Source of the DNA: an uncultured Bacteroidia bacterium
GTDB taxonomy: Bacteria; Bacteroidota; Bacteroidia; Bacteroidales; UBA932
Assembly: GCA_902794005.1 (NCBI GenBank)
Contig: CADBFO010000013.1
Location: 1 to 52,266, forward strand
Length of the DNA: 52,266 nt
Direction: 5' to 3'
This document shows, piece by piece, positions 51,701 to 52,266 of this stretch. Below the pieces are notes generated by a model. It was given only the letters and a program-made list of their open reading frames with translations, did not search any database and was not told the origin of the DNA. A program made the translations under genes and the position numbers. Each line of letters starts with the position of its first letter. Positions within the stretch are counted from its first letter, which is position 1.

Positions 51701-51796
51701 AAGGGCAAGGAAACGGGTTCTTCCGCAATTTAGTTGAAACCGGCTCTTTGTGCCGTATGAAGAGTGCCGTCGAATCGGGATATTGCATCATTACCC

Positions 51797-51838
51797 TAAA
51801 AAAAGAAAACCGCCCCTGAAGATATTCAGAAGCGGTCT
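51797..51838 (-). terminator. Intrinsic terminator of the 16S-Ile-Ala unit
   Basis: On the minus strand ACCGCTTCTGAA pairs with TTCAGGGGCGGT (two T-G pairs) around TATC, followed by TTTCTTTTTTT. It begins four bases after tRNA-Ala, where 23S rRNA would normally be read through. Confidence 0.8.
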
Positions 51839-51841
51839 TTG

Positions 51842-51914
51842 TGGAGGTAGTCGGATTCGAACCGGCGACCCCATGCTTGCAAAGCATGTGCTCTACCAGC
51901 TGAGCTATACCCCC
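51842..51914 (-). tRNA. tRNA-Ala (TGC)
   Basis: Minus-strand cloverleaf with acceptor GGGGGTA/TACCTCC, D-arm AGCTCAGCTGGTAGAGC, anticodon loop TTTGCAA (anticodon TGC) and T-loop GTTCGAATCC. It is the usual second spacer tRNA of a bacterial rRNA operon, here followed by a terminator. Confidence 0.96.
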
Positions 51915-52023
51915 TCAATACAGGGGGCGATACCCCCCCCTCATACTCCCCGCAGCTTCCGGGCTAGTATGTCCTCCTTCGTAGGACACGTCCCTCTGCT
52001 GTCGCTCTGCAGAGCAAGGGAGC

Positions 52024-52058
52024 AAAAAAACGCCGACCTCTGGTCTGGCCGGCGTTTT
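52024..52058 (-). terminator. Terminator-like hairpin between tRNA-Ile and tRNA-Ala
   Basis: On the minus strand AAAACGCCG pairs with CGGCGTTTT around a 14-base loop and runs into a T-run (seven T in all). It could end transcription after tRNA-Ile or be a processing hairpin. Confidence 0.45.
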
Positions 52059-52060
52059 GG

Positions 52061-52134
52061 TAGGCCCTGGCAGAGTTGAACTGCCGACCTCTACATTATC
52101 AGTGTAGCGCTCTAACCAACTGAGCTAAGAGCCT
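52061..52134 (-). tRNA. tRNA-Ile (GAT)
   Basis: Minus-strand cloverleaf with acceptor AGGCTCT/AGGGCCT, D-arm AGCTCAGTTGGTTAGAGC, anticodon stem CTACA/TGTAG with loop CTGATAA (anticodon GAT) and T-loop GTTCAACTC. It is the first spacer tRNA after 16S rRNA. Confidence 0.96.
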
Positions 52135-52200
52135 GTATAATAAAGAAAGACTAAAGTACAATCTTGTACTTGCCGAGCGTCAAAGTCAGGACACAGCTCC

Positions 52201-52266
52201 AAAAAGGAGGTGTTCCAGCCACACCTTCCGGTACGGCTACCTTGTTACGACTTAGCCCCAATTACC
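52201..52266 (-). rRNA. 16S ribosomal RNA, 3' end (partial)
   Basis: The minus strand reads the universal 16S end: AAGTCGTAACAAGGTAGCCG, then GGAAGGTGTGGCTGGAACAC, then CTCCTT, the anti-Shine-Dalgarno core. GGCTGGAACACCTCC in place of GGCTGGATCACCTCC is a Bacteroidota feature. The gene continues beyond the right edge; the exact mature 3' end is set to within a few bases. Confidence 0.95.

Follow-up and report, generated by a model that had tools for sequence, protein, structure and literature searches.

Unlinked rRNA genes described so far

Unlinked rRNA genes of bacteria and archaea were reportedly treated by Brewer and colleagues in 2020 (ISME J 14:597). rRNA genes are counted as unlinked when no 23S gene lies within 1500 nt behind the 16S gene, or when more than 1500 nt separate the two (PMC8178347, in its accessible part). 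The 16S gene lies apart from the 23S-5S genes in symbionts such as Wolbachia and Buchnera (accessible part of PMC8172020), and Cellulosilyticum lentocellum has been described as a genome with both linked and unlinked copies (accessible part of PMC8178347). Unlinked rRNA genes have been tied to symbionts and slow-growing soil taxa, and human samples, the human gut among them, have been reported free of them (PMC8178347 and PMC10402275, both in part). A report of unlinked rRNA genes in Bacteroidales or in UBA932 was not found in the accessible parts of the open-access literature; the Brewer et al. study of 2020, outside this coverage, may contain one. Unlinked rRNA genes as such are established; judging from those accessible parts, the case of a Bacteroidales genus described here appears to be new, and its origin can be traced unusually clearly.

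The window (the whole stretch of DNA analyzed, 52,266 nt) is the entire contig G000:C13 of a draft genome of 57 contigs and 88.96% completeness. It shares with the described unlinked genes the lack of a 23S gene within 1500 nt behind the 16S gene (PMC8178347, accessible part), but belongs to Bacteroidales, whereas the same part of that paper names other groups. It also differs from them in that the 16S gene keeps tRNA-Ile and tRNA-Ala, while the leader of the 23S gene, behind a predicted rRNA promoter, carries boxA and resembles a spacer. The two units, 16S and 23S-5S, are those of Wolbachia and Buchnera, but the assembly here measures about 2.06 Mb, and elsewhere in the family there are genera that have retained linked copies as well. 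Two relatives, G331 and G373, carry both kinds of copies like C. lentocellum; they belong to a different phylum, however, and here the leader of the orphan 23S gene can be matched to a linked spacer. A standard Bacteroidales operon (G050, locus L053) has the same 16S-Ile-Ala order, and a boxA-like element stands in its spacer before the 23S gene; in the window a terminator, not a 23S gene, stands behind tRNA-Ala.

The 16S-tRNA-Ile-tRNA-Ala unit

The right edge of the window is an assembly break 64 nt inside the 16S gene. The features at this end are as follows.

52203..52266, minus strand: 3' end of 16S rRNA, 64 nt (Rfam RF00177, 58.8 bits, model positions 1470-1533), the gene being cut by the contig edge
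52135..52202, minus strand: 16S/tRNA-Ile spacer, which pairs with the 16S leader on contig C33 like a precursor-processing stem
52058..52134, minus strand: tRNA-Ile (GAU) (ARAGORN; Rfam 70.4 bits)
52018..52057, minus strand: predicted intrinsic terminator separating the two tRNA genes (stem of 11 bp with a T-run; -18.4 kcal/mol, z -3.70)
51841..51914, minus strand: tRNA-Ala (UGC) (ARAGORN; Rfam 68.1 bits)
51798..51839, minus strand: predicted intrinsic terminator closing the 16S-Ile-Ala unit (15-bp stem and T-run)
50537..51700, plus strand: convergent AAA ATPase-like ORF (Pfam ATPase_2, E 1.5e-6; the score of 28.6 bits falls short of the curated cutoff, 33.2)
50209..50498, plus strand: two short ORFs from the ORF list, a possible tyrosine-integrase remnant, neighbor only

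An earlier note on this DNA had read the 16S 3' end, tRNA-Ile and tRNA-Ala in that order, and Rfam and ARAGORN bear this out. It had also placed a hairpin with a T-run four bases behind tRNA-Ala. The hairpin is indeed there (51806-51839, -20.6 kcal/mol, z -6.15; 0 of 200 shuffles equally good), but the ARAGORN boundaries reduce the gap to 1 nt, and the second terminator directly behind tRNA-Ile had been missed. The protein gene that it saw on the opposite strand past the terminator is the ATPase-like ORF, which converges on the hairpin and is a neighbor, outside the rRNA unit. The two short ORFs beside it, for which Pfam gave no match, are possible integrase fragments, a label taken over from the earlier note and from known motifs. 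The statement that no 23S or 5S gene lies nearby holds for the whole 52,266 nt of the contig (Rfam and BLAST), that is, for all 52,202 nt behind the 16S gene.

The 16S leader on C33 and the 16S/tRNA-Ile spacer form a predicted duplex of -56.7 kcal/mol, against -32.1 +/- 3.9 kcal/mol for 200 mononucleotide shuffles, the lowest of which reached -41.1; pairing of this strength means that 16S processing can close inside its own transcript. There was no match to the promoter pattern between the 16S gene and tRNA-Ala, and the terminator at 52018-52057, standing ahead of tRNA-Ala, is awkward for a unit that needs to make this tRNA. Elsewhere in the window, a tRNA cluster (Thr-Gly-Tyr-Thr) occupies 270-745 on the minus strand at the left contig end, and at 46060-48003, also on the minus strand, a HAMP/Cache/SpoIIE-type phosphatase adjoins an NMT1-like periplasmic binding protein, perhaps as a sensor pair.

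The other rRNA ends of the same genome

BLAST with the complete Bacteroidales operon L053 from G050, verified by Rfam, located the 16S 5' end at C33:1-68, the 23S 5' end at C30:1-71 and the 5S gene at C34:25042-25115. Together with the 16S 3' end in the window this makes four rRNA ends, spread over four contigs and always at a contig terminus, with fragments only assembled. Searched as a whole with Rfam, the genome yielded no 16S, 23S or 5S match, though these short ends exist, and an Rfam search for 23S in six relatives gave none either, probably because the assembled rRNA ends are short.

In the 5.9 kb upstream of the 23S gene on C30 there is neither a 16S gene nor a tRNA. The 23S leader has instead a predicted promoter, TTTGTCAGTTCCAAAAAAGGTTGTACCTTTG, followed by boxA, GTTCATTGACAATA, and the 16S leader on C33 is built in the same manner, from the predicted promoter TTTGTGGGTTCAAAAAAAGTTGCTACCTTTG and then the boxA-like element GGTTCATTGACAATA. 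The two promoters are alike 31-nt matches, and both agree in sequence with the consensus of the Bacteroides housekeeping sigma factor, TTTG near -33 and TAnnTTTG near -7 (PMC7366714, accessible part); the same pattern occurs 6 times in the whole window, both strands counted. The 16S gene of the window is thus without a 23S gene in the 1500 nt behind it, 23S and 5S genes are present elsewhere in the genome, and the 23S gene has a predicted promoter of its own.

Split units across the genus

The 16S side was compared in 40 loci, one from each of 40 genomes of the genus, that of the window included, and none of the 40 has a 23S or 5S gene. The 16S 3' end itself is visible in 33 of them, with 1507-52202 nt of downstream sequence; in the remaining 7 the 16S end was unmatched and the unit was recognized by its tRNAs. 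A terminator starts within 60 nt past the last tRNA in 34/40 loci, compared with 22/800 shuffles and 6/232 distal windows, and a terminator between tRNA-Ile and tRNA-Ala is found in 10 of the 38 loci that have both tRNAs (the window and 9 others). The unit of G022 has tRNA-Ile with no tRNA-Ala behind it.

For the 23S side, 300 genomes were drawn evenly from a larger group (the genus is large) and searched for the gene, and a 23S 5' match was obtained in 155. Flanks with at least 1484 nt of upstream sequence numbered 78, from 77 genomes, G121 being excluded as its contigs end 58 nt ahead of the 23S gene; 16S, tRNA-Ile and tRNA-Ala are absent upstream in all 78. Every one of these flanks has a predicted promoter matching the Bacteroidota sigma consensus (13/1560 shuffles; 1/78 distal windows), 74/78 have a boxA match (54/1560 shuffles; 1/78 distal windows), and the two elements stand in order in 74/78, compared with 0/1560 shuffles and 0/78 distal windows. 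The boxA pattern missed G239, G016, G105 and G173, and by eye G016 and G105 carry variants of it. These counts come from a sampling biased to split copies, as tRNA-Ile and tRNA-Ala were part of most 16S queries, and as repeated operons drop out of draft genomes in which unique flanks survive. The 40 loci do not include two 16S ends that have no tRNA and less than 180 nt of downstream sequence (G427, locus L156; G424, locus L158); these may be linked copies lacking tRNAs.

Longer contigs show both sides together. In G022 the 16S 3' end (C15:1-256) and the 23S gene (at 42127) lie on one contig and the same strand, about 42 kb apart; in G105 the 16S and 23S 5' ends face outward from the two termini of a 79-kb contig; and in G114 the 23S 5' end and the 16S 3' end occupy the opposite termini of a contig of 105 kb.

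The arrangement could in principle come from a wrong join at a collapsed rRNA repeat, the 23S gene really continuing after tRNA-Ala, and the window has the marks of a usual draft break, as the contig ends inside the 16S gene and the 23S and 5S fragments likewise lie at contig ends. Such an artifact is very improbable, since the 16S-Ile-Ala unit without 23S recurs in 40/40 loci of the genus, the 23S side shows independently a promoter and no 16S gene in 78/78 flanks, and the same units are present in G331 and G373, each assembled as a single contig. We have hardly any doubt that 16S-Ile-Ala and 23S form two separate units.

A 23S processing stem formed from the leader and the 23S-5S spacer was also considered, and was found unconvincing. 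In the duplex test, 23S leader and trailer of G331 and G373 paired no better than shuffles, and the pairing in G413 and G152 was no more than modest.

Relatives outside the genus

G331 and G373 (genus g33) each carry the 16S and the 23S gene three times, arranged as two linked operons without an intact spacer tRNA, one 16S-Ile-Ala unit without 23S, and one orphan 23S-5S; the split halves lie on the same strand, about 109 kb apart in G331 and 30 kb in G373. In G325 (genus g27), also one contig, a free Ile-Ala pair accompanies two linked operons. Six other genera of the family contributed 15 16S loci, of which 13 have no 23S gene in the 1.5-1.75 kb behind 16S, and the two linked ones, G325 and G402, both belong to g27.

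The few outgroups at hand agree with the remark in the earlier note that such a split is unusual for Bacteroidales, G050, G039, G059 and G060 being linked, while G054, from another family of the order, may be split. In G054 a 16S-Ile locus (L055) has no 23S gene in the 8.4 kb behind tRNA-Ile, and two further loci (L165 and L178), which show Ala-23S-5S and another 23S 5' end, lack a 16S gene in roughly 1.2-1.5 kb upstream; the operon may have split independently there, and at a different point. Some 16S-23S spacers without intact tRNAs (L185 and L180 in G373, L056 in G039) have by eye apparent remnants of a T-arm and acceptor.

The earlier note had offered two explanations, an old insertion that parted the operon, suggested by the integrase remnant and the ATPase gene, or a stable split. 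A mobile element that inserted between tRNA-Ala and 23S and parted the operon recently has in its favor that the ATPase-like ORF and the possible integrase fragments adjoin the junction. Yet tblastn (E <= 1e-10) matched the ATPase ORF to none of 20 further 16S-side loci from the genus, all of them split; units without 23S occur in six other genera; and no 23S gene stands at the far side of the putative insertion or anywhere on the contig. The 23S gene, moreover, has a predicted rRNA promoter and lies near pepT and arg genes, and its unit occupies a different locus with conserved neighbors. We consider an insertion of this kind highly implausible. The stable split is the explanation that held, with the unit lacking 23S throughout the genus and in most 16S loci of the six other genera, and with 23S in a promoter-bearing unit of its own. 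An old, stable unlinking of the rRNA genes is in our opinion the best overall explanation, with a probability of roughly 0.9.

Flanking genes and the boxA junction

The neighbors of the two units recur among these genomes. A gene named pepT in NCBIfam lies 0.26-9.3 kb upstream of 23S in 16/18 genomes of the genus, and the orphan 23S genes of G331 and G373 are near the same pepT and arg genes. G325 has at this place a complete linked operon, whose 16S start is about 0.6 kb from an arg-side gene, presumably acetyltransferase-like. On the other side, a chromate-transporter-like gene (NCBIfam matches below cutoff) was found upstream of 16S in 10 of 21 flanks, counted with the single query chr1: those of the window genome, G016, G105, G116 (weak, 35%) and G413, one each of G253, G432 and G163, and those of G331 and G373. 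None was seen at the other 11 of the 21 16S flanks, which have 208-1500 nt of sequence each. In G325 an rRNA-type promoter and Ile-Ala come behind the chromate-transporter-like gene, and a 16S gene is absent. This free pair (L265, 1720-2090; G325:C1, about 994.7-995.1 kb), with a boxA-like stretch between the tRNAs by eye, sits at the locus that carries 16S-Ile-Ala in other genera.

The leader of the orphan 23S gene in G373 is identical to the linked spacer over 104/104 nt, starting exactly at boxA (AGTTCATTGACA), and that of G331 matches its linked spacer from the same boxA point with few differences; an rRNA-type promoter precedes the junction in both. In one linked operon of G373, leader and spacer share a 17-nt identical stretch at boxA.

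Proposed origin of the two units

What can be read from sequence is the two units, the promoter and terminator matches, the pairing of 16S leader and spacer, the presence in the genus and in other genera, and the shared neighbors. Unit 1 runs from a predicted rRNA promoter through a boxA-like leader, 16S, tRNA-Ile, a terminator and tRNA-Ala to a second terminator, and unit 2, elsewhere, comprises a predicted rRNA-type promoter of the same design, boxA and 23S (and 5S too, judging by the relatives). Because promoter type and boxA are common to both, the units could be made in step, provided that both predicted promoters fire and that the boxA-like element acts in antitermination, as we suppose.

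The 23S unit may have arisen when a complete operon lost its 16S gene by recombination between the boxA of the leader and the boxA of the spacer, while another operon would have lost 23S-5S behind tRNA-Ala. The simplest story would then be one of two old rRNA loci with reciprocal loss of parts and boxA as the breakpoint. For an origin of the 23S unit at boxA we see an even chance. We propose only tentatively, at a little under even odds, that boxA served as a hinge, recombination between leader and spacer boxA removing 16S and giving 23S its promoter-boxA start in one step and without loss of function. In the window genus and g33 the arg locus would then have lost 16S, which g27 (G325) would have kept there, and from the chromate-transporter-like locus 23S-5S would have gone in all three, and in G325 also 16S.

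The orphan 23S gene could have gained its promoter by insertion or by exchange between rRNA loci and not by deletion of 16S between boxA sites. rRNA loci recombine easily as a rule, and the orientation of the arg genes to 23S in G331 and G373 is the reverse of that in the window genome, which fits such an event. The junction, however, falls on boxA, an element common to leader and spacer and embedded, in one G373 operon, in the 17-nt identity described above, and the arg-side position is occupied in G325 by a complete operon. Insertion or exchange is a serious possibility, if one that we tend not to favor. The boxA boundary itself could instead mark the start of a gene conversion between copies.

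Probable fully split and mixed genomes

The check proposed in the earlier note, a survey of 16S and 23S genes in the whole genome and in close relatives, upheld the split in the genus and gave a less uniform picture of copy number: some members look mixed, and the draft of the window genome shows ends only. Flanks were counted by reading in 28 genomes of the genus, among the matches listed (to about E 5e-5), a count that may overlook very short flanks. The window genome, G016 (8 contigs, 98%) and G413 show a single flank per kind, and G105 (10 contigs, 96%) does too, provided that its Ile-Ala pair is taken to represent the 16S 3' end, which is unseen. Ten of the 28 (G121, G315, G033, G129, G253, G097, G068, G163, G432 and G114) have two or three 16S 5' flanks and at most one 16S 3' flank. 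Such extra 16S 5' flanks are the pattern expected from additional collapsed linked operons, and part of the genus is therefore probably mixed; the genus probably holds both fully split and mixed genomes.

The genome of the window could itself be mixed, with the split pair and at least one linked tRNA-less 16S-23S-5S operon. The mixed genomes of G331 and G373, the excess of 16S 5' over 16S 3' flanks in the ten genomes above and the two 16S ends without tRNA in the genus would agree with this, and as a draft broken at each rRNA end the assembly may hide a linked operon. Against it, the draft shows one flank per kind, and the same holds for G016 and G413, and for G105 with the replacement just described. 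A mixed state of this genome is on the whole somewhat improbable; full unlinking, with no linked copy left, is what we think fairly probable.

Meaning for surveys and for the family

The nearest named relatives of one window protein are mostly records of rumen Bacteroidales. If the split is genus-wide, long-amplicon surveys that span 16S-ITS-23S would under-count these bacteria or miss them. The family, with linked, mixed and apparently fully split members that share flanking genes, would offer a natural series for the study of how and why rRNA operons separate.
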